Source: Chloroflexota bacterium
GTDB lineage: Bacteria > Chloroflexota > Anaerolineae > 4572-78 > J111
Direction: 5' to 3'
NCBI GenBank assembly: GCA_020049115.1
Contig: JAIFLK010000063.1
Location: forward strand, 1-33,014
DNA: 33,014 nucleotides
Shown here: positions 1 to 31,903 of the stretch, in pieces
How positions within the stretch are numbered: position 1 is the stretch's first letter
Layout of the letters: each line of letters begins with the position of its first letter
Position numbers and translations under genes: made by a program
Notes under the pieces: generated by a model
Told to the model about the DNA's origin: nothing
Seen by the model: the letters and a program-made list of their open reading frames with translations, nothing else
Database searches by the model: none

Positions 1-47
1 GGAGTCCGCAATTATTTGCGGGCTGTCCGGAAAGGATTGCGGACTCC
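1..47. repeat. Inverted repeat with GGAGTCC ends, at the left window edge
   Basis: The 12-base arm GGAGTCCGCAAT at 1-12 is the exact reverse complement of 36-47, with a 23-base spacer. It starts at base 1, so the arm may extend outside the window. It shares its GGAGT/ACTCC ends with the elements at 103-162, 5851-5906 and 27771-27820. No T-run follows on the minus strand, so an intrinsic terminator is not supported. Confidence 0.8.
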
Positions 48-102
48 TGCCAGTCATAGCAAAAGTGTAACTCTCAAATAAAATCCAGTATAAATCAGTT
101 TT

Positions 103-162
103 GGAGTGCAAACCTTCAGGTTTGCTCGTTCATAGTGGAGCAAACCTGAAGGTTTGCACTCC
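103..162. repeat. Perfect 24-bp inverted repeat made of two hairpin-forming arms
   Basis: Arms 103-126 and 139-162 are exact reverse complements separated by 12 bases. Each arm is also a small hairpin by itself (GCAAACC, short loop, GGTTTGC), so the DNA can form one long stem or two short ones. Ends are GGAGTG/CACTCC. It lies just beyond the 3' end of the hybrid kinase gene. It is probably a REP/MITE-like element. A role in mRNA stability or termination is possible, but the minus-strand continuation is not T-rich. I see nothing else in 1-221. Confidence 0.9.
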
Positions 163-221
163 TCTGTCCACGACTCATTTAGAACATCTATAGCACCCTA
201 ATGAGGTTAATTATTACGAAA

Positions 222-2315
222 TTACAGGAATTGTTCAACTAAATTAAGAATCTGGTCTTCCTCAAAATTCTTTGCCAATTGTTGTAGCTTGGCGGCAAAG
301 GGTTTAAACTTAGGGTCTAATTGGCTAATTTGCCCCGCCCGTTTTTGAATTTCAGGCATATTCCCGCGCATCGCCAGGTCAAATAAAATAACCATTTCCT
401 CTGGGGGGGGTGGAATAAAAACAGCCGCGGCCTCATTGTTACTCTCCAAATCATTCCCTATAAGCACTACTTCACTAGGCAAATCAGCCTCTTTATCATA
501 AACCCATTCCAAATCTAAATATGTTTGTAATAAATCTAATAATTTTTTCATACTCACTGGTTTTGATAAAAAAGCATTACAACCCGCCAACAGACTTTCG
601 CCACCCTCTAAATCAAAGATACTGGCAGATAAAGCAATAACCAAAACCTCAGCTAATTCAGGAATTTGGCGGATTTGCTTCACCGCTTCAAAACCCGTCA
701 TCACAGGCATAACTAAATCTAACAAAATAACATCGGGGTGGATCGCTTTAGCTTGGGCCACCCCAACTTGACCATTGGCCGCTTCCACCACCTTAAACCC
801 TAAGGCTTCAAAAAAAATCGTTAGCACCAAGCGATTATAAGGTTTATCATCAACCACTAAAACCTGCCGTAATGGCCCTTTATAACCAATAATAGTGCCT
901 TTTTGTTTCTCATCTAATTCAGTTTGGTCTAACGAAATTGGTACATCTAAATCAAACCAAAAAGTGCTGCCATGTTCATAGTCACTTTTAACCTGCAATT
1001 GCGCGCCCATCAGTTGCACTAATTGTTGGCTAATAGATAAACCTAAGCCTGCACCCTCAGCCCAACCTTGATTATCGTTCGCCTGCTCAAAGGGCCTAAA
1101 AATTTTAGTGAGATATTCGGGAGTCATCCCAACACCCGTATCCATGATTTCAAATCGAATTTGCGCCTTCATTTGATTATTTCGTTCACCCACAAACGGA
1201 TTAATTACCATTACGGTAAGTGTCACTCCCCCGTCTGAGGTAAATTTAATGGCATTATCTAACAAATTAATCAATACTTGTCGTAAACGGCTTTCATCGG
1301 CCAAAATAGTTTGTGGCAATAACGTTAACAGCCGATAATGAAAACTAAGCCCTTTCTGTTCAGCCCGCAAACGCATAATACCCACAATCCCATGCAAAAA
1401 ATTCGCGAGTGAAAAATGATTAGGCAAAATCTCAAGTTTGCGCGTTTCCAAATAAGACATGTCTAAAATATCGTTAATTAAAGTTAATAAATGTTCCCCA
1501 CTTTGTTGAATAATATGCAAACCATCTGCCTGTAATACACTAATGTTTTTATCTCGTTTCAAAATTTGCACATACCCCAAAATACCATTCAACGGAGTAC
1601 GCAGTTCATGCCCCATTTTACCCAAAAAAGCACTTTTAACCCGATGAGAAGCCTCAGCCGTTTCCTTTGCTTTTAACAATTCTATCGCTTGCTGCTCTAA
1701 CTGATTTTTTTGTTGTTCTAGCTCCTCAGCCCGCTTTTCTAGTTCCATATTAGCCTGTTGTAAAGCCGTAGCCGTTTTTTGTAACTGTTCGTTTTGACTT
1801 TGCAAACTTTGGGCCAAACTCTTAATATGCAAATGAGTCATGACTCTAATCAAAACATCTTCATGGTTAAACGGCTTAATAATATAATCGACCCCACCGA
1901 CTTGAAAACCTCTCACCTTATGTTGGGTTTCAGTCAAAGCCGTCATAAAAATAACGGGGATATGTTGCGTTTTCTCACTCGCTTTCAAACGATAACAAAC
2001 CTCAAACCCATCCATTTTCGGCATCATCACATCTAACAAAATAATATCAGGCCGCGCATATTCCGCCCTTTTCAAAGCACTTTCACCATCTTGAGCAATT
2101 AAAGTGGTAAAACCATAGCCCTTTAAATAACTGGCTATCAGCCGTAGATTAATCGAGCTATCATCCACAATCAACACGGTAAATTGTTGGGGTTGCAACC
2201 CCGATAAGTAAGATTTCCAACCAGGCAAATCTATCCCAGGGTTAGGTAAATTCTGAGTGGTAATATCAGAAAAATCAAATTGAGTAACAGCGGGTTTCTC
2301 TAAAGCTGAATCCAT
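222..2315 (-). CDS. Soluble hybrid histidine kinase (REC-HisKA-HATPase-REC)
   Basis: A 697-residue cytoplasmic phosphorelay protein with no membrane segment. Domains in order: receiver 1 (about 46-165; DD at 51-52, phospho-acceptor D95, T125, K147); a Gln/Glu/Leu-rich coiled coil (about 166-225); HisKA with the GHELRTPLNG motif (phospho-acceptor H236); HATPase (about 335-460; N-box N354, DTGVG 392-396, GAGLGL 421-426); receiver 2 (about 485-600; D533, K585). The last 60 residues form a helical tail starting with a poly-Pro stretch (PPPPEE), often seen in cyanobacterial-type hybrid kinases. All catalytic residues needed for kinase and relay activity are present. It has no sensor domain of its own; the N-terminal receiver implies that an upstream kinase controls it, plausibly the membrane kinase encoded at 4263-5807. 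No clear Shine-Dalgarno precedes the ATG. Confidence 0.95.
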   Translation of the reverse strand: MDSALEKPAVTQFDFSDITTQNLPNPGIDLPGWKSYLSGLQPQQFTVLIVDDSSINLRLIASYLKGYGFTTLIAQDGESALKRAEYARPDIILLDVMMPKMDGFEVCYRLKASEKTQHIPVIFMTALTETQHKVRGFQVGGVDYIIKPFNHEDVLIRVMTHLHIKSLAQSLQSQNEQLQKTATALQQANMELEKRAEELEQQKNQLEQQAIELLKAKETAEASHRVKSAFLGKMGHELRTPLNGILGYVQILKRDKNISVLQADGLHIIQQSGEHLLTLINDILDMSYLETRKLEILPNHFSLANFLHGIVGIMRLRAEQKGLSFHYRLLTLLPQTILADESRLRQVLINLLDNAIKFTSDGGVTLTVMVINPFVGERNNQMKAQIRFEIMDTGVGMTPEYLTKIFRPFEQANDNQGWAEGAGLGLSISQQLVQLMGAQLQVKSDYEHGSTFWFDLDVPISLDQTELDEKQKGTIIGYKGPLRQVLVVDDKPYNRLVLTIFFEALGFKVVEAANGQVGVAQAKAIHPDVILLDLVMPVMTGFEAVKQIRQIPELAEVLVIALSASIFDLEGGESLLAGCNAFLSKPVSMKKLLDLLQTYLDLEWVYDKEADLPSEVVLIGNDLESNNEAAAVFIPPPPEEMVILFDLAMRGNMPEIQKRAGQISQLDPKFKPFAAKLQQLAKNFEEDQILNLVEQFL

Positions 2316-2334
2316 ATCAATAGAATTAAGGCAG

Positions 2335-2367
2335 AGACCTCCGCGATTTTTGCAACCTCGAAGGTCT
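2335..2367. repeat. Imperfect 14-bp inverted repeat in the 115-bp gap
   Basis: AGACCTCCGCGATT (2335-2348) pairs with AACCTCGAAGGTCT (2354-2367) at 11 of 14 positions around a 5-base loop. The right arm matches the AGACCTTCGAGGTT-type palindromes that recur in some cyanobacterial and Beggiatoa-like genomes (recalled, not searched). It lies between the lipoprotein gene and the hybrid kinase gene. Nothing else was recognised in 2316-2430. Confidence 0.5.
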
Positions 2368-2430
2368 ACTATAACTTACAAAGAAGTGACAAATACCTTA
2401 AAAGTATCTGCCACCTACGTCATACTGATA

Positions 2431-4266
2431 TTAAGGTTGCGTTGGTTGTAGATTATGAATAATTTCATGACTACTTTGCCACCATGTGGGGGGGTGAATA
2501 TAATTATTCTTCGCAGTCGGCCAGCCTGTCCAGTAAGTAGAGTTAAAAGGAATGAGTACACCCGCTTGCACCAGCGGAATAACGGGTAACTCCTGTAACC
2601 AAATATCCATGGCCTCCACAAACAACCCCTCAATATGAGGGTCGCCCAAAGGTAATGAGCCAATTTCATCGACTAGGCGGCCATATTTCTCCGCCCCTTT
2701 ACCCGACCATCGCCAAATATTTTGACCCTCGCCTGTTCGTTGGTCAATCGGTTTAAGCCAACGGGGATTAAACGTATCCATTGAAGCCCACGGCTCATTG
2801 ACTGAGCCACAACTCCACCACCCCACCATGGCCGTAAAATGTCCCACCAATAATGTATCATACCAGCCACCGTAATCTTGCGCCTGCATTTCACTTTTAA
2901 TTCCCACCCGTTGAAACTGCTGTTGCAAAATTTCACCCATATTTCTAAAAGCAGTATCATTCGCCACCGAAAAGTTAAAGGTTAACGGTTGCCCCTCTTT
3001 TTCATACATTCCATTCGCATTAAGCTGATACCCTTTTGATTCAATAATGGTTTTAGCTTTTTCCACATTATGCTCTAACAAAGGATATTTTTCATATAAT
3101 CCTTTTTGCTCTAATAAATCAACATAACGATTTAAGGCAGGGTAAGAAGGGAAAAAATGACGAGCAGGAATAGTAGTATCATTAAACGCAAAACTGACAA
3201 TTTCATTACGGTCAATAGCGTAATTTATCGCCCAACGCATCTCTGGGTCATTCCAGGGCGGCACAGTATGGTTAAAGTCAAAGGAACGCGAGCAAGGGTC
3301 AGGTATCCAGGCATAAGGTAAATCATCAAAATAGGTAACGATGTGAGGGCTTTGTTTTTTCATCTTCAGGAGTGAGTCTAACGAAATACTACCCAATACA
3401 TCAACCTCACCCGCAATCATCCGAGCCACTCGTGTTTCCTCATCCCCTGAAGCTATCCAAGTCAATTTCTCAGGCTTAGGCAACGCTTTCCAAGCACTTT
3501 GCGCGCCCCACCAATTATCATCACGAACATAGCTAATTTGGTCTGGGCTAACATTACTTAATTTATATGGCCCCGTAAAAATCGGCCAGCCCTGGCCAGG
3601 GTCATAATTTTTGAACGTCAATGGATCCTGCCCTTGCCAAATATGTTGCGGAACAATCGTTGGGCCGCCCCAAACTTTCACCGACCATAAATCAAGCTGA
3701 AAACGGGGATTAGGCTTACGCAGTGTAAACCGAATGGTTAAATTATCGACCTTCTCTAACTGTTTAACCCAGGTCTGCATGTCGGCTGAACCATTCAAAT
3801 CGGGCGCATGGCTTAACAATAAATTCACCGTAAAAATCACATCATCGGCACTAAAAGGTTCACCATCACTCCATTTAATTCCTGAACGTAATTTCAATGT
3901 CCATACATCCAAAGCATCATTGACTGTCATACTTTCACCTAACCATGAGTCAATTTTACCTGTCTCATAATTAAGAATAAAAAGTGGCTCAATCAGAGCT
4001 TGATGAAAACCATTATCCATGCGCCGTTCTGCGGCTAAAGGATTCCAATTTTCTGGGTCACGCACCGTACCATCAATCATTTCAAAAATGACTGTTTTGG
4101 CCCGTTCAGAGTCAATCACCGTCGTAGCGGAAATCACTTCAGTTATATTGCCAGTCAATGGCTTAACTGGAGGGTTGGTTTCAAACACAGTTGCGCCATT
4201 ACAAGCCGTTACAAATCCCAATAAGCCAATGATAAGCCATATAAACCCATTATTTCTGCGCTTCAT
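2431..4266 (-). CDS. Family 5 extracellular solute-binding lipoprotein (peptide/oligopeptide type)
   Basis: A 611-residue binding protein of the SBP_bac_5 (DppA/OppA/NikA) family, expected to be a surface lipoprotein. The N-terminus has positive charges (MKRR), a hydrophobic stretch and a lipobox ending in C22 (VTAC). The family signature around W132 (SDGEPFSADDV) is intact, and the full two-lobed domain spans about 90-560. Its ATG overlaps the stop of the upstream histidine kinase gene by ATGA, so the two are probably translationally coupled. No permease or ATPase gene of an ABC importer is nearby. This suggests either that it serves a transporter encoded elsewhere or that it is a ligand receptor for the coupled kinase. 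The ligand cannot be predicted from sequence alone; peptides are the family default. Confidence 0.93.
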   Translation of the reverse strand: MKRRNNGFIWLIIGLLGFVTACNGATVFETNPPVKPLTGNITEVISATTVIDSERAKTVIFEMIDGTVRDPENWNPLAAERRMDNGFHQALIEPLFILNYETGKIDSWLGESMTVNDALDVWTLKLRSGIKWSDGEPFSADDVIFTVNLLLSHAPDLNGSADMQTWVKQLEKVDNLTIRFTLRKPNPRFQLDLWSVKVWGGPTIVPQHIWQGQDPLTFKNYDPGQGWPIFTGPYKLSNVSPDQISYVRDDNWWGAQSAWKALPKPEKLTWIASGDEETRVARMIAGEVDVLGSISLDSLLKMKKQSPHIVTYFDDLPYAWIPDPCSRSFDFNHTVPPWNDPEMRWAINYAIDRNEIVSFAFNDTTIPARHFFPSYPALNRYVDLLEQKGLYEKYPLLEHNVEKAKTIIESKGYQLNANGMYEKEGQPLTFNFSVANDTAFRNMGEILQQQFQRVGIKSEMQAQDYGGWYDTLLVGHFTAMVGWWSCGSVNEPWASMDTFNPRWLKPIDQRTGEGQNIWRWSGKGAEKYGRLVDEIGSLPLGDPHIEGLFVEAMDIWLQELPVIPLVQAGVLIPFNSTYWTGWPTAKNNYIHPPTWWQSSHEIIHNLQPTQP

Positions 4267-5807
4267 GAAAGTTCCTGCTCCTTATCCTCAGTAGAAATGG
4301 GAATTGTCGCCCATGGCACCGTAAACTTAAATTGTGTTCCCTCACCTAAAACACTCTCCACCCAAATATCCCCGCCATTTTTTCGCACCATTTCATGACA
4401 CATCACCAAACCTAAGCCTGTTCCTTGCTCCTTATTTGTGCCAAGGGTGGTATGATGAACTTCTATTTTAAATAATTTCTCCACATCTTCCGCCGCAATC
4501 CCCACCCCCGTATCAGCCACCGAGACTTCGACCTCTGACGAACTAGGTAAAATGTAAGGAAAAGCAAGGTTCGCATCGTTAATTGAACGTTGCAACGACG
4601 ATTCATGCCTGACTTCACGCACTTGGGCGGCAATGGTAATTGACCCACCATGTGGGGTAAATTTTAGGGCATTAGCAGTTAAATTACGAATAACGGTATC
4701 TATCATGTGTTGATCGGCATAAATAAAAAGAGGTTGGTGTAATGTAGTTTGTAAGATAATGCCTTTATTCACCGCAGTTTCATTTAATAATTTAACATTC
4801 CGCTCAACGATTGCTTCTAGGTTAATTATTTCTGGTTGATATTCCATGCGGCCCATCTGCATGCGTGACCATTCCAATAAATTCTCTAAGAGGTTAAAAA
4901 CATTACGGGCTGAACGATATAATGATTGCCCCATTTCTTTAATATCTTCCGGTTTTAACACATCAGCCATCTCCGCCAACAACTCAGAAGCCCCTAACAA
5001 AGGCGAAAATGGGCCACGTAAATCATGCGCTACAATGGAGAAAAATTTATCTTTACTGGCATTCAACCGTTGTAAATCGGAAACCAATATCTCCAACTCG
5101 GCATGAGCCATTTTTAATTTACTTTCACTTTCAGCTAAACGAAAATTGGTTGTTTCTAATAATTGATTAGCTTTCTTGATTTGCAGTTGGCCTTCAAACA
5201 ATTCATCCCGACGATTTTTCGCTTTGGCCTGGCTTTGAACCGCCCAACTATAAGCCGTAATTAAATTATTAGCTCCGCCCCAGGTAATAAAAGCCAAAAC
5301 CACCGCCAAAGTATTAGGGATAAGTAACAAATCAACTTTAGTAGGTTGAGTCCCTCCCACCACTATCATACTAATAATAAAATTGACCCCAGCAACTACA
5401 AACGCGCCCCGCGGCATAATCAGTAAACCCGCCACCGCGACCACCATTAAGGTAAGGTAAGGGTAAAATGACTCTAACGCATTGGGCAACAACAAAAGGA
5501 TATTAATAACTATGACTATCCCCGTCATAATAACTTGCGCGGCAAGTTCAACCTTATCTTGTTTCTGATAACGATGGCTTAACCAAGTGGCAAAAGCTAA
5601 AATAATTGAAGCAGATAACCAAATCCAATGAACGTTAGAAAGGCCCGTTTCATTGATGTTGGGGCGCAAAACTAGCCCATATGCATAACGTTGTAGAAAT
5701 AGGAAAACTACGAAACCACATCCTATCAAAACATTCTGTAAGGCACTTTTTCGTAAATCTTGTAAATCTACTTTTGAACTTTCCATCGGTTTTTCAGTAT
5801 TCAACAT
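4263..5807 (-). CDS. Membrane sensor histidine kinase with six predicted TM segments
   Basis: A 514-residue histidine kinase. The N-terminal 180 residues hold about six hydrophobic segments (near 24-41, 61-78, 89-107, 115-131, 136-152, 160-178) with short loops and no periplasmic domain. A coiled coil follows (about 195-250), then HisKA with phospho-acceptor H261 in VAHDLRGPF, then HATPase (N379 in NLTANALKF, DTGVG 432-436, GTGLGL 462-467). It should autophosphorylate H261 and pass the phosphate to a receiver; the nearest receivers are in the hybrid kinase two genes downstream. With so little extracellular sequence, it probably senses within the membrane or through a partner, for which the overlapping binding-protein gene is the obvious candidate. 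The start could also be the TTG codon directly after the ATG (see 5808-5816). Confidence 0.94.
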   Translation of the reverse strand: MLNTEKPMESSKVDLQDLRKSALQNVLIGCGFVVFLFLQRYAYGLVLRPNINETGLSNVHWIWLSASIILAFATWLSHRYQKQDKVELAAQVIMTGIVIVINILLLLPNALESFYPYLTLMVVAVAGLLIMPRGAFVVAGVNFIISMIVVGGTQPTKVDLLLIPNTLAVVLAFITWGGANNLITAYSWAVQSQAKAKNRRDELFEGQLQIKKANQLLETTNFRLAESESKLKMAHAELEILVSDLQRLNASKDKFFSIVAHDLRGPFSPLLGASELLAEMADVLKPEDIKEMGQSLYRSARNVFNLLENLLEWSRMQMGRMEYQPEIINLEAIVERNVKLLNETAVNKGIILQTTLHQPLFIYADQHMIDTVIRNLTANALKFTPHGGSITIAAQVREVRHESSLQRSINDANLAFPYILPSSSEVEVSVADTGVGIAAEDVEKLFKIEVHHTTLGTNKEQGTGLGLVMCHEMVRKNGGDIWVESVLGEGTQFKFTVPWATIPISTEDKEQELS

Positions 5808-5816
5808 ATCCTCCTC
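5808..5816 (-). promoter_or_regulatory. Strong Shine-Dalgarno of the membrane kinase gene
   Basis: Read on the minus strand this is GAGGAGGAT followed directly by ATGTTG. The AGGAGG core sits only 2 bases from ATG but 5 bases from the following TTG, so initiation at either codon is possible. It is one of the few clear ribosome-binding sites in the window. Confidence 0.7.
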
Positions 5817-5850
5817 ATTGAGGTGATACTCCTAAAAAGAGTGTTAATAC

Positions 5851-5906
5851 GGAGTCCAAAGCCGTAGGCTTTATCACACGGCTCAAAGCTTACGGCTTTG
5901 GACTCC
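5851..5906. repeat. 22-bp inverted repeat with GGAGTCC ends
   Basis: Arms 5851-5872 and 5885-5906 are reverse complements with one mismatch and a 12-base loop. Each arm is itself a hairpin (AAAGCC, GTA, GGCTTT). The size, loop and GGAGT ends match the element at 103-162, so they look like members of one structural family with different inner sequence. A short outer pair AGGTGAT (5821-5827) / ATCACCT (5913-5919) encloses it. It sits upstream of the kinase/lipoprotein genes. No promoter was recognised in 5808-5935. Confidence 0.85.
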
Positions 5907-5935
5907 ATTGCCATCACCTGAAAATTTACAGGTGG

Positions 5936-8050
5936 CTATAGTTTATCCTCAAGCCTAATTTCTATATTGGCATGAGTTGCGCTGAGACGTTTACCTAATT
6001 CCTCAGTGGCAATTTGCATTAAACGACTGAAATTAGGTGCAGACCGTAACTTATCCGTTATTTCACGAATAATTTGTTCGTTGGTTGCTTGCCGACGGGT
6101 ATTTTCAAATAAACGTAACCGTTCAGCAATCTGCCCCAATTGGTCTACAACTGCTTCAATCGTCATTAAATCCTCATCCTGCCAAACCTTACCCCGATGA
6201 GCATGCAGTTGAACTGTCCCAATTTCAATATTTCGAAATGTAACTGGTAAGGTTACTGCTTCCCAACTCAACCCTGCGGCTTCAAGTGAAATACGAGTCA
6301 ACCGTTCTGAAGCTAAAGTCGCCGCTTTAGCTTGAACTATTATCGCTTCAGGCAAAGGGTTTGCTTGATTTTGGCTATATAAATAGCGCATTTGAGCCAA
6401 TAACAAATCCCTATTCCAACCCACTTCCAAATATTGCCGTTGAACCGCTTGGGTCTCAACTAAAGCTGCTTCCACTTGAGCAAACAATCTCGCATTACGA
6501 ATAGCTACAGCAACTTGGTTCGCTAATGACCGTAATAAAGCAATATCACTTTCATCTAAAGAAGCGGGTGGGCTTTGTTGTACATGTAACACCCCTACTA
6601 CCCGTTGCTCTAAAATAATCGGCACCGCCATCTCCGCCATCTCTACCCCACCAACATTTAGTTTAATTTCGGCTGTTTGTGCCGCTTGAGCCACTAAACT
6701 GGTAGGCAAATCCAAAGCAATCGTTTGTCCACCTGGCTGCATTGCCTCGCTTTCATCACGTAAACCCACTTGCATGACCAATAATTGCCGAAATTCATCT
6801 AGCAAATAAACCTGAACTTGATGATAATGAAAATGCGCTTTAATCTGCTGAACTAATTCCTCTAACAATTGATTTAAGTTGAGAATAGCGGTTAATTGCT
6901 CACTAACAGTAGCCACAATTTCTAGTTGTCTGGTTCGTTCAACAATTTTGCCTTCCAAACTACCAATTACGGAACTTAATTGGCTAGTCATGGCATTAAA
7001 TGCCTCGGCTAAATGTCCAATCTCATCCTGTCGCTCAATTTGAGCCACTTGAGATAAATCCCCCGCGGTAATTCGGCTAGCAGTCTCAGCTAAATTGACC
7101 AAAGGATTGGTAATATTACGAGTAATAAAAAGAGAAGCAATGACTGTAAAAACAGTGGCTATCAGCCCAATAATTAAGTTATTTAACAAATTTTGGTAGG
7201 TCGGGATTAACGCCTCAGCTTGGTCTTGTTCGGCTAATAAAGCCACCTGTAACTCTGGCAACCAACGATACGCCCCAATAACGGGCTGGTTACGATAATC
7301 ATTATAGACCGCCACCCCATTCACATGCTGATTTAAAGCCCGTTCACTGCCTAATGTGTTGACATAAACTGTCCCCGTCAAAAAGCGTGAAGGAGTCAGT
7401 TGAATGCCACTTCCCGCCACTAAATAAGTTTCACTGGTTTCAGTTGTCCCGACTAAACGCTCCATAATCTTTACCAAAGGAACAATACTGGCGCGTCCTG
7501 CTAAAACCGCCACCACTTCCCCCTGAATATCCCGAAGTGGATAAGCCACGATAACTGACCAACGGTCTAAAGTAGCCTCATAAAAAGGCGTACTAACGGT
7601 GGGTTTGGTCAAGCCCTGTTGAAAAAAAGGTTCAGTAGTATAAACCTTACCGACCTGATTGAGTTCAGTCGAAATTATCACCTGGCCTGATAAATCAAGG
7701 AGGAATAACGCCTCAAAAAAAGGGTTCTTATTTATTACTTCATCAAAACGTAATTTAATGGCCGTTAATTCAGCGTGAGGCTGAATGAAGGCCACTTGTT
7801 CAGCCGTAAGAATAAGCGTTAAACTATTTTTTAGATTACTCACCCATAACTCTATTTCCGCCTCTTTTAATACCGCCACCGATACTAACCGATTGGTTAC
7901 TTGCGTTTGTCCATCTTGAAACCCTAAGATAATCGAACTGAGGCCAATAACCAAAACAGGTAACAACACTGTTAGCATAAAAGCCAAAAGTAGCCGAGTT
8001 TGTAAACTCATTGTTTTATTAAAACTTACATGCTTAACGTTAGTCGCCAT
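5936..8050 (-). CDS. Membrane receptor: TM-dCache-TM-HAMP-GAF, no output domain
   Basis: A 704-residue transmembrane sensor. TM1 is about 19-45, an extracytoplasmic double-Cache-like domain about 50-285, TM2 about 288-309, and HAMP about 310-362 (P316, DEIGHLAEAFN 342-352). A GAF domain spans about 385-523 and ends in NQVAVAIRNARLF. A linker with a conserved Trp (RQYLEVGW) leads to a sequence like the second half of a GAF (about 598-648), then a helical tail (IIREITDKLRSAP..., about 658-704). The expected path is a periplasmic ligand, then HAMP rotation, then GAF. There is no kinase, GGDEF, EAL, HD-GYP, PP2C or methyl-accepting domain, so output must go through a partner. Followed by a 128-bp gap to the membrane kinase. 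The start codon is followed by a short cytoplasmic N-terminus and has no clear ribosome-binding site. Confidence 0.92.
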   Translation of the reverse strand: MATNVKHVSFNKTMSLQTRLLLAFMLTVLLPVLVIGLSSIILGFQDGQTQVTNRLVSVAVLKEAEIELWVSNLKNSLTLILTAEQVAFIQPHAELTAIKLRFDEVINKNPFFEALFLLDLSGQVIISTELNQVGKVYTTEPFFQQGLTKPTVSTPFYEATLDRWSVIVAYPLRDIQGEVVAVLAGRASIVPLVKIMERLVGTTETSETYLVAGSGIQLTPSRFLTGTVYVNTLGSERALNQHVNGVAVYNDYRNQPVIGAYRWLPELQVALLAEQDQAEALIPTYQNLLNNLIIGLIATVFTVIASLFITRNITNPLVNLAETASRITAGDLSQVAQIERQDEIGHLAEAFNAMTSQLSSVIGSLEGKIVERTRQLEIVATVSEQLTAILNLNQLLEELVQQIKAHFHYHQVQVYLLDEFRQLLVMQVGLRDESEAMQPGGQTIALDLPTSLVAQAAQTAEIKLNVGGVEMAEMAVPIILEQRVVGVLHVQQSPPASLDESDIALLRSLANQVAVAIRNARLFAQVEAALVETQAVQRQYLEVGWNRDLLLAQMRYLYSQNQANPLPEAIIVQAKAATLASERLTRISLEAAGLSWEAVTLPVTFRNIEIGTVQLHAHRGKVWQDEDLMTIEAVVDQLGQIAERLRLFENTRRQATNEQIIREITDKLRSAPNFSRLMQIATEELGKRLSATHANIEIRLEDKL

Positions 8051-8066
8051 GTTCGATGTGATTCCA

Positions 8067-8178
8067 AGACTTACGCAATTGCGTGGTCTACCCCCCTTAA
8101 TTCCCCCGACATCGGGGGGAGACGTTACTCCCTCTCCTATGTAGGAAAGGGTTGGGGTGAGGTGTTTACGTAAGTCCT
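8067..8178. repeat. MITE-like element, copy 1
   Basis: About 112 bp with imperfect terminal inverted repeats: GACTTACGCA at the left and the reverse complement of GGACTTACGTAAA at the right. It fills most of the gap between two receptor genes. It is a near-identical inverted copy of 16058-16167 (roughly 90% over the core by eye) and includes the internal pairing CCCCCGACATCGGGGG (8104-8119). No transposase is encoded, so mobility would be in trans. The rest of 8051-8215 shows nothing recognisable. Confidence 0.85.
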
Positions 8179-8215
8179 GTGATTCGAGAAAAATATCATT
8201 ACAAAATATAAGAAA

Positions 8216-10459
8216 TTATTTTTTTAGCTCAAACACAGCCGTATTCGCCCGAATTTTTTGTAAATCTACCCCTAATTCTAGCACCGTGTGACGGACACCT
8301 AACCGTTGGCCTAGTTCGCGGGCCGCAATATCCAATAAAGTGTCTAGGTTGGGGGCTAAACGCAGCTTATCCGTAATCTCACGAATCACTTGCTCCCGCC
8401 CCGCACGCTCACGAGTTTCTTCAAACAAGCGCAAATTCTCGGCTGCTTGCGCGATTTGGTCAATCACCGCGGTGATAATCGCGACCTCATCTTTATTCCA
8501 CCCCATCTCTTGATATTCTAGCCCCACTCGATGCAACTGTAAATCACCAATTTTACGCCCCATGACAGTAATTGGGCTAATTAAAGAGTGGGTTGGATGA
8601 GCAGTTTCCTCAAAGTGTTTGACCTGGGGTTTAGAGTAATGTTGAGCCAACTCATGCCCTTGCTCAACCACCTGTTCAGGCAAAGTTAGGGCATGAGGAG
8701 CGGCATAAGCATGGCTTTTATGTTTCAAAGTCGCAATAACTTTCTCCCATGATTGCTCTAAATAGCGCGCTTGAATGGCATTTGATTCTACCAAAGCGGC
8801 TTCAACCTCAGCAAATAAGCGAGCATTACGAATAGCTATCGCCACTTGATTGGCTAAAGAACGTAATAGCGCCGCGTCGCTTTCATCAAAACCAGCCACC
8901 TTATCTTCCTGCACATCAAGCACGCCCACCACTTGCCCTTCTAAACTAATTGGCACCGCCATTTCAGAGCAAGTTAAAGCTAAAAGGGGATTAGGCAGCC
9001 AATCAATCGCTTGACGCACATCATCAACCCGCACAATTTCACCACTACGCGCCGCCCGCGCCACCAAACTGGTTACGGTATTCAAAGGAATATAATGCCC
9101 TTTGGCCTTCATTTTACTACCTGCCACGCCAAAACCAGCCGTCATAATTAAGTTTTGGCGTGGCTCATCTAACAAATAAACATGTACATGGTAATAATTA
9201 AAGCTGGTTTTAATCTGGGTCACTAAATTTTGCAACAGTTGGTCTAAATCAAGAATAGCACTCAGTCGCTCACTTAAACTCGCCACCGTCTCCAAACGCT
9301 CCGTCCGTGCCGCCACTCGTTGTTCCAACGAACCAATTAAATCCCGCAATTGCGCCGTCATAATATTAAATGCCCTAGCTAAACCAACAACCTCAATGGG
9401 GCCAGCTAACGAGGCAGTTAAATTTAATTCCCCCTCAGAAATTCGGGTGGCGGTGGTCGTTAAATTAAGTAAAGGATACGCTAAACGTCGTGAGGTATAA
9501 ATCCCCCCCATCGCTGATACCCCCCCCACAATAAATAAGAAACTAAGCGATAGAATAATGGTGGAGATGACCCCTTGATAAGCCTCAGTAATCGGTAACT
9601 CCGTTACCACGGCCCAATCTGGCACCCCTAATGGCACAAACGCTCCTACAACATAATTATTACCAATACCAACAGACCAATCATACCCATTTTTATGGCT
9701 AGAGTCATCATGGATAAATTGAGCCACTTCTTTAAGCTGACTTACGTTTTCACCCGCTAACACGCGAGCGGTATCTTGAAAAGCAAGTAAGTTACCCTGA
9801 TGGTCAACAATATAGGCTACCCCATGATCACCCTGTTGTCCTATTTGTAATTGAGCGACCAATTCCCACATAAATTTCAGGTTTACTTGCACCACCAATG
9901 CGCCCTGGAAATTGCCAAAAATATTAACCACTGGAATTGCCACCCACGCTAAAGGTTGTTTGGTCTGCTCATCAATGAATATGGGGCTGATATAACGCCT
10001 ATCTTCAGAAACAATACGGAACAATTCGCTATCGGCCTGACTCTTCAACTCAACTTGGGGTACTACGGCATACTGTGATTGTTTAGCTATTTCTTGGCCT
10101 TGCTTATCCAACAACGTTACGGCCAAAAAAGTGGGTTGTAACCCTAAGAGATTTCGCAAAAATAGTTTTTGCTGCGTGTTATCTTTAGTAATAGGGTCGC
10201 TGACTTGAACCGCCGACTCAAGGGCTTGAAATATAGCATTAATAAAACTTGAAACTTCATGGGCGGCGTTAGTGGCAATCAATTCTTGTTCACGCGCAAC
10301 CACGGTTTCTTGCGCTTGAAAATTAAGAACTAGCAAAAAACTACTCCCTAATACGAGGGCAAAAACGGTTAAAAGCGTAAAAGCCGTCGCCAGAGTAGCA
10401 GCTAAACTACGAGCATGCTTAGATTGTTCACTTGAAAAATCAGAGTTGGCCGTTGCCAT
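8216..10459 (-). CDS. Membrane receptor: TM-dCache-TM-HAMP-GAF, with a degenerate HAMP
   Basis: A 747-residue transmembrane sensor. TM1 is about 20-46. A dCache_1-like domain spans about 50-295, including RYISPIF followed by VAIPVVN and GALVVQVNL, typical of the membrane-distal Cache fold. TM2 is about 297-320, HAMP about 321-372, GAF about 405-548. A Trp linker (ARYLEQSW), a GAF second-half-like segment (about 625-680) and a tail (VIREITDKLRLAPNLDTLL, about 691-732) follow. In the HAMP, the usual Asp-Glu-hydrophobic-Gly motif is replaced by IEVVG, so its signalling geometry may differ from its paralogues. The GAF is strikingly similar to that of 27849-29984 (shared VDDVR/VDNVR, SEMAVPI, LLRSLANQVAIA), indicating a fairly recent duplication. 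No output domain. The ATG lacks a Shine-Dalgarno. Confidence 0.92.
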   Translation of the reverse strand: MATANSDFSSEQSKHARSLAATLATAFTLLTVFALVLGSSFLLVLNFQAQETVVAREQELIATNAAHEVSSFINAIFQALESAVQVSDPITKDNTQQKLFLRNLLGLQPTFLAVTLLDKQGQEIAKQSQYAVVPQVELKSQADSELFRIVSEDRRYISPIFIDEQTKQPLAWVAIPVVNIFGNFQGALVVQVNLKFMWELVAQLQIGQQGDHGVAYIVDHQGNLLAFQDTARVLAGENVSQLKEVAQFIHDDSSHKNGYDWSVGIGNNYVVGAFVPLGVPDWAVVTELPITEAYQGVISTIILSLSFLFIVGGVSAMGGIYTSRRLAYPLLNLTTTATRISEGELNLTASLAGPIEVVGLARAFNIMTAQLRDLIGSLEQRVAARTERLETVASLSERLSAILDLDQLLQNLVTQIKTSFNYYHVHVYLLDEPRQNLIMTAGFGVAGSKMKAKGHYIPLNTVTSLVARAARSGEIVRVDDVRQAIDWLPNPLLALTCSEMAVPISLEGQVVGVLDVQEDKVAGFDESDAALLRSLANQVAIAIRNARLFAEVEAALVESNAIQARYLEQSWEKVIATLKHKSHAYAAPHALTLPEQVVEQGHELAQHYSKPQVKHFEETAHPTHSLISPITVMGRKIGDLQLHRVGLEYQEMGWNKDEVAIITAVIDQIAQAAENLRLFEETRERAGREQVIREITDKLRLAPNLDTLLDIAARELGQRLGVRHTVLELGVDLQKIRANTAVFELKK

Positions 10460-10505
10460 AATTATTTAACCGTTATTTTTAACAATAAAACTATTCATTA
10501 GAGTT

Positions 10506-10614
10506 TATACCGATTAAAAAATCGTTGAGATTTTGTAGGGGCAATGCCTTGTGCTTGCCCCCATTGTGGGCAAGCACAAGGCATTGCCCCTACGAAAATC
10601 ATTAAATCGGTATA
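10506..10614. repeat. Nested palindrome with 26-bp inner arms and TATACCGATT outer ends
   Basis: Inner arms 10535-10560 and 10568-10593 are perfect 26-base reverse complements around a 7-base loop and begin GTAGGGGCAATGCC. Outer arms TATACCGATT (10506-10515) and AATCGGTATA (10605-10614) form terminal inverted repeats, giving a small MITE-like unit. It fills most of the 162-bp gap. On the minus strand the inner stem is followed by mixed sequence before a T-run, so it is not a standard terminator, although transcriptional attenuation remains possible. Nothing else seen in 10460-10621. Confidence 0.88.
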
Positions 10615-10621
10615 ATGTCTA

Positions 10622-12940
10622 TTAAACAGGCTTTGCTTCATGGGCAACCATGTCTGTATGTAACTCTAACGTCACTTCAGAAGCCCCTAATTTATTGCCC
10701 AACTGCGCTACGGCGGCCCGCATGACCTCTTCAATTTTATTTGAAGCCCACACTTTGGCGGTCGTTTCACTAATCATCTGGTCACGCCAGGCATTACGTT
10801 GAGTATCATCAAATAAGCGGGCCGCATCTAAAGCCAAAGCCACCTGTTCGGCTAAAGTACGTATCATGACCAATTCATCTTTAGTCCAAACGGCGGCGGC
10901 CTTACGCTCAATTCCAATCACACCAATCACCTCTTCCCGTAACATAAGCGGAATAGAAACGCTAGTGGTAGGCTCATCTAATGATACAGTTTCAAGCATC
11001 ACCTCACTAGGTTGACTATAAACGAGGTCACGTTGCTTAATGGCTGTGGTCATGGTTGATAGCCATTGGGTCAATTTATCTTTAATGGGTTGAACTTCTT
11101 GTTTGGTAAAAACATAACCTGCTGCGGCAGTTTTTTGAGCGATATTTTGCCAAGCGGTCTGAGTTAAACGACGATTCAGAGCCTCCACCGCCACCAAAGC
11201 CGTTTGATTACGTTGAAATAAACGAACATTATCAATCGCCACCGCGACTTGGTCAGCAATAGATTGCATGAGCGTTAAATCAGCTTGATTAAAACCACCT
11301 AACTCCTCACTTTGCATATCCAAAACGCCAATAACCGTCGAACCTTTACGTAAAGGAATAGCTAACTCTGATTTTGTTTTGGGCAATAAAGGATTACGAA
11401 AAAAATAGGGAATAGCATCCACATCATCAGCCAAAAAAGATTGCCCACTCAAAGCCACTCGCCCCACAATGCCCTGCCCCACCGGCAAACGATGTTGTTT
11501 TGCTTTCAATTGTTGCCCAACTTCACCCGACCCCTCGACCATAATTAGCTCTTTAGCCAATTCATCCATGAGATAAAGATGACAATGATAAAAATTAAAA
11601 TCCTGTTGAATTCGTTCAATTACATAACGTAATAGCTCATCTAAATCCAACATAGTGGCAATTTTACGACTAATCTCAGCACTTGTCTCTAAGGCTTGCG
11701 TTCTATCATTAATCCGCTCTTCTAAATTATCCACCAAACTTTGGATCTGCTGCGTCATCAACTCAAAATTGTGGGCTAATTGCCCAATTTCATCCTGGCC
11801 TTTAACCAATAAATGTGCTTTCAAATCTCCTTGAGCAATCCGCGCCGTAGCCTCGGCCAACAAACGAATGGGGGTGGTAATTGTACCCGCTAACCAAACA
11901 GAAAGGAAAATAGTGGCTAACATGACCACAATAACTAAACTAAAAATGGCCCCCCCCAACACATTAATATCCGCCAAAACTGCCTCACCAGGGAGGCTTT
12001 TAGCTAAAAACCAATAATGGTCAGGCCGTTGTGTATCGTAATAAATTTTTTGTACCGCCATAACCCGCCGCGTTTGGGGGTCAATTGCGGCTATAATATC
12101 TTGCCCTTTAGCCTGAGACATTATCCAAGAAAAATCTTGCGTTAGCTTGGCCTCAAGCCCTAAATCAAAGCCAAATTCAACCTCAGGGTTGGGATGATGT
12201 AAATAATAGCCATTTTGATTAGCCAAATAAACTTCAACTCTATCATTAGGAGTTTCTACCAACAAATTAAGAATATGGCTGGCATAAACATTTGAGATAA
12301 CCAGCCCTTTGAACTTACCCGCTTGATTAAATAAGGGTACAGCATAACGCAACACCGGCGTATGAGGCACTTGAATTTGGTCATGGTCACGGTTAAGGTC
12401 TACTTGAGAAATATAAATTTGGTCGCTTTTCAATTTCGCGGCCTCTATAAAATAATCTCGCTGGCTCTTATCTTGCAGTTCAGCAGACGATACAATATTG
12501 ATTTTTTGAGTAATAGGGTCAAAATTAACCCGTACCCGCTCATAACCATGCTCATCTAAATAACGTAATTGTTGGTAAGTTCTCTTGCGCTTAGAAACCT
12601 CAGCAAAAACATCTGTCAAGCGTTGCGCCCAAATTTCATAACTAAGGCCACTTTCAGGGTCAATTCCCCCATTATCAGTCGCTTGAATTATCGCATGAAT
12701 AGCCGAATTTTGGCTAAGGCTTAAAATATCTGTTTCATATTGCAATAAAAAACTCTTCAAATTTTGGGCAGTGGCTTGATTAGCAACATCAACCTCATGT
12801 AACGCATTCGCTTCCAAGGTGCGTTGAAACTGAATGTAACTAATGAGCGCGAAAATAATCAACGGAATTAAAGCTACCGCTAATAAAATAATCGTCATTC
12901 TAATTCGCAAACTGTTTTTAAAGCGTGGAAGTTTTATCAT
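10622..12940 (-). CDS. Membrane receptor: TM-dCache-TM-HAMP-GAF
   Basis: A 772-residue transmembrane sensor. TM1 is about 13-37. A large dCache domain spans about 45-325; the LRYLDEHGYERVRVNF stretch and SQRDYF are typical of dCache sensors found on kinases and cyclases. TM2 is about 329-350, HAMP about 351-402 (P357, DEIGQLAHNFELM), GAF about 427-575 (FYHCHLYLMDE ... DQVAVAIDNVRLF). A divergent Trp linker (RRLTQTAW), a GAF second-half-like segment (about 660-710) and a helical tail (MISETTAKVWASNKIEEVM, about 722-762) complete it. No catalytic output domain. It begins three bases after the stop of the PAS/LOV protein gene, so the two are almost certainly co-transcribed and perhaps coupled in translation; the leader has only a weak AGGG. 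The Cache ligand cannot be predicted; I do not see the amino-acid-binding dCache motif clearly. Confidence 0.92.
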   Translation of the reverse strand: MIKLPRFKNSLRIRMTIILLAVALIPLIIFALISYIQFQRTLEANALHEVDVANQATAQNLKSFLLQYETDILSLSQNSAIHAIIQATDNGGIDPESGLSYEIWAQRLTDVFAEVSKRKRTYQQLRYLDEHGYERVRVNFDPITQKINIVSSAELQDKSQRDYFIEAAKLKSDQIYISQVDLNRDHDQIQVPHTPVLRYAVPLFNQAGKFKGLVISNVYASHILNLLVETPNDRVEVYLANQNGYYLHHPNPEVEFGFDLGLEAKLTQDFSWIMSQAKGQDIIAAIDPQTRRVMAVQKIYYDTQRPDHYWFLAKSLPGEAVLADINVLGGAIFSLVIVVMLATIFLSVWLAGTITTPIRLLAEATARIAQGDLKAHLLVKGQDEIGQLAHNFELMTQQIQSLVDNLEERINDRTQALETSAEISRKIATMLDLDELLRYVIERIQQDFNFYHCHLYLMDELAKELIMVEGSGEVGQQLKAKQHRLPVGQGIVGRVALSGQSFLADDVDAIPYFFRNPLLPKTKSELAIPLRKGSTVIGVLDMQSEELGGFNQADLTLMQSIADQVAVAIDNVRLFQRNQTALVAVEALNRRLTQTAWQNIAQKTAAAGYVFTKQEVQPIKDKLTQWLSTMTTAIKQRDLVYSQPSEVMLETVSLDEPTTSVSIPLMLREEVIGVIGIERKAAAVWTKDELVMIRTLAEQVALALDAARLFDDTQRNAWRDQMISETTAKVWASNKIEEVMRAAVAQLGNKLGASEVTLELHTDMVAHEAKPV

Positions 12941-30015: not shown

Positions 30016-30653
30016 CTACCAGGTTAAGGCTTCGGGGATTTGCTTAAATAGTTTGGCTAATTGAGGAATTGTTTCATGTTGACGTTGCATCTCTTGCCAA
30101 ACGGTGGGATGTGCTTCCGTCTTGAGTTCATTTATCATATTGTCTAACTCTATTTGTGGCCTATTTGCATTTCGTTGCATGAGATAATATTCCAGTCTAT
30201 GTCTATAATTTCCGGTGGTGGTTGTCTTGATACATTTTTCTGAGGTGGTTGTGTTGGTTTATTTTCTGGTGGGGTTAAGTGAACTACATTACCATCCACA
30301 TCAATTATCGCGCAGTGATTATCTTTGGGACTATTACAAGTTCCACAACTATATAAATAGTTATCCCAATTGTAACAAAGATTGGGGTAAACATCTTTTG
30401 GTAAGATATGTTCTACTTCATCAGCCTTAGAATCTTCACAATAATGACAACGCTCGGCCCCGCTAGACATTTGAATTAACTTCTTTTTGACCTCATCAAA
30501 AGTACGATTTCCCATTTTATTGCTATTCCTAAAACTATCTTTAGCAAACTCAACTTGAGCCAAGTAGTCCGCTTGTTTATCCACTTTAGCTTGATACCGA
30601 GCCAGTTTTTCCATAGCGCGTTCAGATAATTCAGGTCGAGTTAAGTTTATCAT
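30016..30653 (-). pseudogene. HNH endonuclease (PtuB/TIGR02646-like), frameshifted and probably internally deleted
   Basis: The open frame 30653-30150 encodes 167 residues with an HNH/zinc pattern: C69-x2-C72, E81-H82, N98, C103-x2-C106, N107 and K110 (CHYCED ... VEHILPKDVYP ... CGTCNSPK). This matches the HNH nuclease family paired with AAA ATPases in Septu and some retron systems. The frame ends at TAG, but another register continues to a TAG at 30016-30018 and reads YRHRLEYYLMQ, then HPTVWQEMQRQH and IPEALTW, a C-terminus I recognise from the same family. Between residue about 140 and this tail, the usual stretch of some 50-70 residues is not found. So there is a frameshift plus a likely deletion. 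The catalytic part is intact, so a shortened active nuclease is still conceivable, as is an assembly error. The start overlaps the ATPase stop by ATGA. Confidence 0.75.
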
Positions 30654-31903
30654 GAGGTAGTGGGTAATATCGCTCTTAATTCATTCAAGTGTAACTTTTC
30701 ATCAGGGGTAATTATTCCCTTAAAAGATTTAACATTTAAGTCCGCCAATTCCTTAATCATTTTTTGCGCGGCTTCCGACTGGCTGGCATTTGCCCCAAAC
30801 AACTCCGTCCCATACGCGTCTAATACATTGCCATAAATTAATCTATCCTTATCCACCCCTACAATTTCCTGCGATTCAACCCCGCTGCCTGGGGCTGCCA
30901 ACTGCCAAATCGAACCGTTATCACATGCCCGACACACTAAGGGGCTATGGGTGGTCACGATAAATTGAATGTTAGGGAAATATTGCGTAAACCATTGCCC
31001 AATGCGCGTTTGCCAAGTGGGGTGCAAATGAGCGTCCACTTCATCAATAATGACTACACCAGGCAAGTTAATAATGGTTTGATTTTTAGTTGGAAAAACC
31101 GCTTTATCGCCATAAGTATCTAAAAGCAATCGAATTATATCCAGGGTCATGCTCAAAATAGAACGATACCCATCACTCATTTCAAATAATGATATATTAA
31201 CACCATTCGCATCTTTTAATTTCAGCCCATCAGAATCAATATCCGTCAGTAAAATAGCCCCATCAGGTAATAATTTTGCGGCATTGATAAATCCAATAAG
31301 ACCATCAAGTATTGCTTTAGCCGTAGCTTTTTTAGGCGCATCTAACGCCAAATCTTTCAGCCAAGCCGTCACTTGAGTTAAAGCAATATCATCTCGAAAG
31401 GCACTTAAACAGGCTAATATTCTAGGGCGAGAATTTACCATGTGAGCAAAAGTATCATTTCCCCCACGCAACCGCCTAACAGGGCCATAAGCTGAAATAT
31501 ACCATCCCTTGCCACTATTATCACCCCATAAGCCATTTTTTGGCTTGATACTTCCCGTAATATTAACGTTGCCATTCCCCTTGATTCTGATAATAGCTAG
31601 ATTAGAAGTCACCACATCCTTACCCTTATACTCAGGTTTATCATAGTCATTATCCCGAAGTATTGATATTTTAATTTCCCCTTTTTCTATGTGAGGTGGC
31701 AACCATTTAGCAAAATCTTCCAATAAAAATAAAGCCTGAGCATCCTGCTCCCCAATCATCCCCAACGCCACCGCCCGCACCACGCTTGATTTACCTGACC
31801 CATTATCGCCAATCAACACATGCCAACCTGCGGGTTTAGCAAAGGTCATCTTAAAGTGACCAATGGAACGTATATTTTTTATCTCAACTTCTTGGATGTA
31901 CAT
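30650..31903 (-). CDS. ABC-type AAA ATPase (Septu PtuA-like / RecF-SMC-like)
   Basis: A 417-residue cytoplasmic ATPase of the AAA_15/AAA_21-like (OLD/RecF/SMC-related) class. Walker A is GDNGSGKS (32-39), the ABC signature-like segment MSDGYRS (242-248), Walker B VVIIDE (283-288, catalytic E288) followed by the D-loop VDAHLHP, and the switch histidine H319 in TTHSP. The segment YISAYGPVRRLRGG (135-148) is typical of ATPases that neighbour TIGR02646-type HNH proteins. All ATPase residues are intact. By family knowledge such ATPases, together with an HNH nuclease, form anti-phage complexes (Septu type). The downstream HNH partner is damaged here. The start is set by a good Shine-Dalgarno lying inside the end of the upstream GAF gene, so the ATPase is co-transcribed with the sensor genes. 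The specific Septu assignment is less sure than the ATPase class. Confidence 0.88.
   Translation of the reverse strand: MYIQEVEIKNIRSIGHFKMTFAKPAGWHVLIGDNGSGKSSVVRAVALGMIGEQDAQALFLLEDFAKWLPPHIEKGEIKISILRDNDYDKPEYKGKDVVTSNLAIIRIKGNGNVNITGSIKPKNGLWGDNSGKGWYISAYGPVRRLRGGNDTFAHMVNSRPRILACLSAFRDDIALTQVTAWLKDLALDAPKKATAKAILDGLIGFINAAKLLPDGAILLTDIDSDGLKLKDANGVNISLFEMSDGYRSILSMTLDIIRLLLDTYGDKAVFPTKNQTIINLPGVVIIDEVDAHLHPTWQTRIGQWFTQYFPNIQFIVTTHSPLVCRACDNGSIWQLAAPGSGVESQEIVGVDKDRLIYGNVLDAYGTELFGANASQSEAAQKMIKELADLNVKSFKGIITPDEKLHLNELRAILPTTS

Follow-up and report, generated by a model that had tools for sequence, protein, structure and literature searches.

The window, that is, the whole stretch of 33,014 nucleotides analysed from a Chloroflexota bacterium (contig JAIFLK010000063.1), contains a co-directional gene cluster in which two dCache-HAMP-GAF sensor genes and a lipoprotein gene are separated by a gene for a membrane histidine kinase, and the order continues from kinase to lipoprotein to hybrid kinase (Table 1). 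These genes had first been described in a sequence-only reading, which took the lipoprotein and the six-TM kinase for the two halves of a split receptor of a peptide-like ligand. Its account of the locus was borne out: the kinase stop and lipoprotein start overlap, the hybrid kinase with its N-terminal receiver comes next, and H261, D95 and D533 are where they had been placed. Searches of the window's 15 proteins detected neither a permease nor an importer ATPase family. The window has further sensors with dCache-like domains (10622, 16186 and 27849); the survey of upstream genes reported below covered the 5936 and 8216 dCache types and the six-TM kinase. The promoter and terminator scan of positions 1-11000 gave 22 and 9 sites versus 23.4 and 10.7 in shuffled sequences and was uninformative for operon structure.

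Table 1. Features of the gene cluster in the window.
Feature	Position	Strand	Remarks
Hybrid kinase REC-HisKA-HATPase-REC, soluble	222..2315	-	Pfam; D95, H236, D533; by eye no TM segment
SBP_bac_5 lipoprotein, orphan solute-binding protein (SBP)	2431..4266	-	611 aa; Pfam; lipobox-like Cys22
ATGA overlap, kinase stop / lipoprotein start	4263..4266	-	4 bases shared by the ORFs
Histidine kinase, five to six TM segments, no visible extracytoplasmic domain	4263..5807	-	514 aa; HisKA and HATPase_c; H261
dCache-HAMP-GAF sensor without recognised output domain, candidate receptor	5936..8050	-	HAMP and GAF over Pfam cut-off
dCache-HAMP-GAF sensor without recognised output domain, candidate receptor	8216..10459	-	dCache_1 65.4 bits, over cut-off

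The lipoprotein matches SBP_bac_5 (PF00496) with 221.5 bits against a cut-off of 32.4, over nearly the full length of the profile (positions 3-360 of 368), and its AlphaFold model has a pLDDT of 86.4. The best PDB matches of this model were the sugar binders TM1223 and TM1226 of Thermotoga. The top solved matches were 1vr5, 4pft and 4pfu by sequence, 4pfu by profile, and 1vr5 (Z 35.8), 4pfy and 4pfu by fold. The closest solved relatives by both sequence and fold are thus the oligosaccharide-binding cluster of PMC8449061 (Thermotoga MnBP and CeBP, Vibrio CBP), which fills the first 14 rows of one fold listing, with the cellobiose binder 2o7i only 24th, and the first 17 rows of another. The peptide-like ligand proposed earlier was not supported, because these nearest solved structures are oligosaccharide SBPs. 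A firm sugar ligand is not claimed either: the ligand residues Trp363-x-Asp365 of VhCBP appear not to be kept in the window lipoprotein when it is aligned with the Thermotoga proteins. The stretch GWTDW of the Thermotoga proteins, presumably the site of Trp363/Asp365 (VhCBP itself being absent from the alignments shown), is replaced by a THEAFIEKQ-like stretch in the SBP subfamily and is changed again in the window protein. Judged by sequence and model, an oligosaccharide-like solute is more likely than a peptide.

The neighbourhoods of the lipoprotein's relatives fall into two kinds. Outside the sensor-linked family, DppB/DppC was in view in 46 of the 51 relatives fetched and a kinase in none, which is the pattern that the sequence-only reading had named as contrary to it; the sensor-linked subset does not follow this pattern. 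This subset comprises 12 intact SBP copies that lie with sensors and have no permease in view (eight from Chloroflexales, two from the window's own genome, and single copies from Rhodospirillaceae and a gammaproteobacterium). Directly downstream of the SBP, 10 of the 12 have a gene for a dCache-HAMP sensor with a kinase or GGDEF output instead of one for a six-TM kinase. For example, the output is a kinase at loci L174 and L182 and at the own-genome locus C27, and GGDEF at L176 and L189. A dCache gene was directly downstream of the SBP in all eight Chloroflexales loci found. In the order holding L182 the SBP was detected at E <= 1e-140 in one of 317 genomes, a sporadic case. Of 86 transporter-linked SBPs, 32 had a LacI regulator within 4 kb; none of the 12 sensor-linked ones did.

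These neighbourhoods bear on whether the lipoprotein serves, as an additional SBP, an importer whose genes lie elsewhere in the genome, its place among kinases being incidental or regulatory. DppB/DppC was also in view in 57 of 80 named relatives, a set that overlaps the 51 whole-genome relatives, and Dpp-type importers are encoded on other contigs of the same genome, where 35 BPD_transp_1 hits lie in 20 regions. However, no cognate permease was found among these 35 hits, the best identity being 25-37% compared with 50-86% between cognate operons; the genome is 55.9% complete and a cognate permease may be missing from it. Also, both own-genome copies of the SBP (55% identical) have kinase genes as neighbours and no permease in view; a kinase cluster likewise harbours a decayed copy found in another genome of the window's family. 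In a quick tree of 75 of the 115 distinct SBP sequences, from which 40 transporter-linked rows were left out, the window, C27 and L182 SBPs formed one clade (SH-aLRT 98) and the sensor-linked SBPs were spread over three clades. The simplest reading of this tree is repeated recruitment of the SBP subfamily to sensors, with losses also possible. A role as a second importer SBP is, on this evidence, improbable.

The N-terminus of the kinase at 4263-5807 has five Kyte-Doolittle maxima above threshold, two of them overlapping; on inspection by eye, six TM helices are plausible, and no sign of a periplasmic domain can be seen, in agreement with the earlier description. The ATGA overlap suggests coupled translation, and it could be taken to mean that the lipoprotein docks directly on this kinase and that the signal passes through its membrane helices. 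The own-genome locus C20 offers a parallel, in which a second six-TM kinase, 32% identical in its sensor part, is followed 50 bases downstream by a Peripla_BP_6 lipoprotein gene. However, this lipoprotein gene itself precedes a gene for a large membrane sensor, the usual partner position. No SBP gene lay directly upstream of the kinase gene in 19 loci of six-TM-kinase relatives (7 of 26 loci had no upstream gene in view), and one, that of C20, lay directly downstream. No relative of the window lipoprotein was found in the 20 loci fetched around kinase relatives, in three of which the sensor part was not re-found. Judging from these loci, the adjacency of kinase and lipoprotein is not a recurring pair. 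As the kinase also has no visible extracytoplasmic domain on which to dock, direct docking appears rather unlikely. The relay proposed earlier from H261 to D95 or D533 is possible.

The dCache sensors of the window resemble the partners of permease-less SBPs. The sensor at 5936-8050, whose dCache_1 match of 42.8 bits is just below the cut-off of 45 and whose AlphaFold model is poor (pLDDT 45, six alignment rows), is 36-39% identical in its N-terminus to five dCache proteins adjoining such SBPs and is of the type of the Chloroflexales partners. The N-terminus of the sensor at 8216-10459 is 41% identical to the C27 partner and 32% identical to the L182 (Rhodospirillaceae) partner. In each of the eight SBP-bearing Chloroflexales genomes, the gene that matches the 5936 dCache best is the one adjoining the SBP (155.5-185.9 bits); the 54 genomes searched alongside that lack the SBP gave at best 142.3 bits. 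Six genomes of the window's family without an intact copy of this SBP retain a strong 5936-type match (156-210 bits). As to the choice between the two sensors, the 8216 type is favoured by the SBP tree. The dCache tree, a quick tree of 68 rows with long branches (L321 and five loci of Chloroflexales that were in the set already were left out), does not resolve the 8216 sensor beyond a basal position within its type, and does not join it to the two SBP_bac_5-linked sensors.

The survey of upstream genes extends this association to other SBPs. An SBP gene of one of at least five families lies directly upstream of the dCache gene in 35 of 54 surveyed loci of both types, whereas the window lipoprotein gene is downstream of its dCache genes. 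For the 5936 type it was present in 19 of 29 loci (NMT1, SBP_bac_5, Peripla_BP_6, SBP_bac_1/8) and absent in 10; for the 8216 type it was present in 16 of 25 (ABC_sub_bind, Peripla_BP_6) and absent in nine, four of 29 loci having no upstream gene in view. At C27, a Bmp-family SBP gene also takes this upstream position. The loci were the best 29 of 62 other 5936-dCache matches and the best 29 of 34 8216-dCache matches; they were picked by likeness to the window sensors and include some near-copies. Fisher tests on these counts take no account of relatedness, and no weight is placed on their values. Family assignment used Pfam counts for genes on the same strand and no more than 350 bases away (22, 24 and 15 proteins) together with phmmer comparison to SBP-family seeds, which other SBP families among the few remaining upstream genes could escape. 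Peripla_BP_6 was counted as the seven found by phmmer, Pfam giving eight members. For two 5936-type positives, L262 and L267, the score was taken from loci that overlap them, L248 (where the gap between SBP and dCache is about 560 bases) and L251, because spurious opposite-strand ORFs had masked the SBP. The upstream proteins of L299 and L308 in the 8216 type were not counted; both have GAF parts and L299 also has a Peripla_BP_4 match.

It could be argued that the SBP gene was swept by chance into a gene-dense sensor array and has no signalling role, as kinase genes abound in the genome (171 matching stretches) and kinase neighbours are frequent. However, the same SBP type stands beside sensors in Chloroflexales and Proteobacteria, at loci that are unlike such arrays, and other SBP families hold the same position ahead of the same dCache types. 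Chance is therefore a very improbable explanation.

An SBP that feeds a receptor is the best reading of the locus, because an importer-type SBP and some of its relatives sit with sensors and not with permeases. This part of the split-receptor proposal is supported; the choice of the six-TM kinase as its particular partner is not, the recurring neighbour of permease-less relatives being a dCache-HAMP sensor. We put at about 0.58 the probability that an importer-type SBP was recruited from an importer into signalling, that the loaded or empty lipoprotein docks on a dCache sensor and that the kinases relay the signal. The data show the gene content, the permease-free window, the sensor linkage of part of the SBP lineage, and that SBP and dCache genes recur as a pair in which outputs and SBPs are exchanged; we infer the docking, the direction of the signal, the partner dCache, co-transcription and the relay. 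The lipoprotein, anchored at the outer face of the membrane, would capture a small solute and, loaded or empty, would dock on the extracytoplasmic dCache domain of 8216-10459 or 5936-8050 in the manner of LuxP-LuxQ. Because the dCache sensors have no recognised output domain, the six-TM kinase (H261) and the soluble hybrid kinase (D95/H236/D533) would receive the signal from them within a membrane complex. The lipoprotein probably reports an outside molecule, perhaps sugar-like, to neighbouring membrane sensors. A bolder and more tentative reading is that in these bacteria a few dCache sensor types serve as a universal socket, open to solute-binding lipoproteins from six or more families. The window would then be an extreme form, with output-less dCache-GAF sensors, SBP, six-TM kinase and hybrid kinase as separate subunits of one receptor hub.

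Sensing that depends on SBPs is known from single systems; no account of this exact SBP/dCache/kinase association was found in open-licence papers. In LuxP-LuxQ, the Vibrio AI-2 receptor, a periplasmic binding protein reports its ligand to a kinase with a double-PDC (dCache-like) periplasmic part (PMC8534201). The window differs in having a family 5 SBP of importer origin and dCache proteins with no recognised kinase domain. Excerpts of the sources also describe HptA-HptS of Staphylococcus aureus (PMC8534201) and ArtI-STM1987, with a dCache diguanylate cyclase of Salmonella (PMC8846402), as a binding protein with a dCache or double-PDC sensor. Their outputs, kinase or GGDEF, are the same two found beside window-type SBPs; the binding proteins are others than that of the window, and these excerpts mention no sensor array. 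The chitin-oligosaccharide-binding protein CBP of Vibrio controls the membrane kinase ChiS (PMC5519180 and PMC8449061) and is close in fold to the window lipoprotein (1zty, Z 32.2). However, CBP also serves an ABC importer, and its Trp363/Asp365 appear not to be conserved in the window lipoprotein. In CuaD-CuaS-CuaR of Ruminiclostridium cellulolyticum, a second SBP lipoprotein beside a two-component system binds the sensor by two-hybrid (PMC10384115). There, the cellobiose binder CuaD has 410 residues and CuaS is a kinase complete in itself, whereas the presumed receptor and the kinases of the window are separate proteins. The window system would be a variant of already known SBP-dependent sensing. 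Here, one importer SBP subfamily occurs with sensors in three clades, and the same dCache types have upstream SBPs of several families. If the proposed reading is true, it would offer a natural system in which to study the acceptance of various binding proteins by a dCache domain, together with a rule by which orphan SBPs of little-studied phyla could be assigned to their receptors.

The window is one entire 33 kb contig of a genome of 4.44 Mb in 397 contigs (55.9% complete), and its 15 ORFs of 150 aa or more all lie on the minus strand. The ATGA overlap between the six-TM kinase and the lipoprotein, together with H261, D95 and D533, was found by sequence check where the sequence-only reading had placed it. 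In the ten GAF/PAS/dCache proteins upstream (5936 to 29984, and 31906-32991, minus strand), Pfam identified no kinase or other output domain. The C-terminal tails of these ten co-directional proteins look alike by eye. A Septu-like defence pair lies within the GAF array by PADLOC models, with a PtuA-like ATPase (449 bits) and a PtuB-like HNH protein (182 bits) that is shorter than its profile.

Features of the window, with the last five genes in transcription order
Feature	Position	Strand	Basis and remarks
dCache-HAMP-GAF protein	8216-10459	-	Pfam; first of the five
dCache-HAMP-GAF protein	5936-8050	-	Pfam; second
Six-TM kinase	4263-5807	-	Pfam; third; H261
SBP_bac_5 lipoprotein	2431-4266	-	Pfam; fourth; lipobox-like Cys at 22
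Soluble hybrid kinase REC-HisKA-HATPase-REC	222-2315	-	Pfam; final gene transcribed
Septu-like pair	30150-31903	-	PADLOC

The lipoprotein's parent subfamily consists of importer SBPs, since DppB or DppC was in view in 46 of 51 neighbourhoods and 57 of 80 named loci; a LacI-type regulator is often close by (32 of 86 transporter-linked SBP sequences). The 51 were all the neighbourhoods outside the window's family from two sets of relatives, with lipoprotein matches in 10 of 100 related genomes (E <= 1e-80) and 44 of 396 genomes of the class (E <= 1e-130), own genome counted in both. The 80 loci came from a separate scan and overlap with the 51. None of the 51 neighbourhoods held a kinase match, and three of the 57 loci (L196, L198, L211) had one 4.5-8.6 kb off. 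Neither permease was in view in the other five neighbourhoods (L048, L080, L091, L095 and L098), of which four are short contigs. Relatives outside the family thus follow the pattern that the sequence-only reading named as refuting (lipoprotein with Dpp-type permeases, kinase unlinked), but a sensor-linked subset with no permease in view, from the own genome, Chloroflexales, L182 and L177, does not.

This subset is real. Both own-genome SBP copies (window and contig C27, 55% identity) have kinase genes around them and no permease in view. In family genome G007 all that is left of the SBP is a fragment of 70% identity, split over two frames, inside a kinase cluster. That fragment (L094 9692-10423) directly precedes a gene reading like a truncated kinase. 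Among the 23 named loci without permease, a dCache gene is directly downstream of the SBP in L174, L176, L180, L185, L189 and L190, which we take to be Chloroflexales, and also in L182 (Rhodospirillaceae record); in L177 (gammaproteobacterial record) a kinase-receiver gene follows, without a dCache domain by Pfam. The remaining 15 comprise five contig ends, two SBP_bac_5-SBP_bac_3 fusions (L175, L184) and eight others; neither permease nor same-strand sensor adjoins the SBP in L165, L188 and six Poribacteria loci. The related SBPs of Poribacteria L200, L203, L204, L208, L212 and L214 have no permease or kinase match in view. Fused SBP_bac_5 and SBP_bac_3 domains occur at L175 7911-10370, L177 5674-8199 and L184 7920-10379, from SAR324, a gammaproteobacterium and an Oceanospirillaceae record. 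At their C-terminal end the SBP-adjacent dCache proteins carry a kinase in L174, L182 and C27 and GGDEF in L176 and L189; the L182 partner (9824-12172) has a C-terminal hemerythrin domain. In the order of L176 the SBP was found in 8 of 82 genomes, with dCache directly downstream in all eight. The SBP tree places sensor-linked SBPs in three clades: window, C27 and L182 (SH-aLRT 98), Chloroflexales (100), and L177 with the fusions (99).

The dCache sensors are preferred over the six-TM kinase as candidate docking partner of the lipoprotein, mainly because, in the surveyed loci, 19 of 29 genes of the 5936 type and 16 of 25 8216-type genes are immediately preceded by an SBP gene, versus 0 of 19 six-TM-kinase relatives. 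Docking on the six-TM kinase instead is considered unlikely. Against the preference for the dCache sensors, the window's gene order is unlike that of other SBP-dCache loci, and an SBP directly upstream was not scored for 10 of the 29 and 9 of the 25 genes. A further point against it is that, on own-genome contig C20, a Peripla_BP_6 lipoprotein comes directly after a second six-TM kinase; that lipoprotein itself precedes a 1367-aa sensor. The C20 locus (L143 467-8206) thus reads as six-TM kinase-receiver, lipoprotein and apparent membrane sensor.

As to which dCache sensor is the partner, the 5936 N-terminus matches five Chloroflexales partners at 36-39% identity (152-192 bits). The 8216 N-terminus shares 41% identity with the C27 partner (236 bits) and 32% with the Rhodospirillaceae one (164-173 bits), and cross-type pairs reach at most 96 bits. 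The clade of window, C27 and L182 SBPs argues for the 8216 type. In the dCache tree the C27 and L182 partners are joined (96), with the 8216 sensor outside any resolved grouping. A strong 5936-type match (156-210 bits) is kept in six family genomes that lack an intact copy of the lipoprotein; NMT1-family SBP genes are directly upstream of it in G005 and G001, and no SBP is there in the other four. Own-genome 5936-type matches have an NMT1 SBP directly upstream on contig C393 and a Bmp one on C27. At L289 351-7055 (genome G774), the genes after a 5936-type dCache protein are a response-regulator-like one and those of an apparent DppA-DppB-DppC operon.

The ligand is taken to be sugar-like, as a putative assignment. 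The nearest solved proteins by sequence bind mannoside, cellobiose and chitin-oligosaccharide, and such binders fill the top 14 and top 17 rows of two fold listings for the lipoprotein model; the cellobiose binder ranks 7th in one and 24th in the other, there behind some nickel and peptide SBPs. Excerpts of PMC8449061 describe four residues fully conserved among five such proteins, including Trp363 and Asp365, which in our alignment apparently lack counterparts in the lipoprotein's subfamily. The C-terminal WTGWP stretch is retained and probably holds the counterpart of Trp513.

Among the open-licence papers listed, none was seen to describe members of this importer subfamily next to dCache sensors, or different SBP families taking each other's place upstream of one dCache type. 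Judged from gene order, these arrangements may offer a testable rule for candidate SBP-sensor pairing. SBP-dependent sensing is a kind already known, since, in the excerpts available, binding proteins act through dCache/double-PDC sensors in LuxP-LuxQ and HptA-HptS (PMC8534201) and ArtI-STM1987 (PMC8846402), sugar-binding SBPs act on kinases in CBP-ChiS (PMC5519180, PMC8449061) and CuaD-CuaS (PMC10384115), receptor interaction is reported for SBPs of 13 families (PMC9602780), and in Pseudomonas syringae an entire amino-acid transporter locus is reported to have been co-opted for signalling (PMC7386598).
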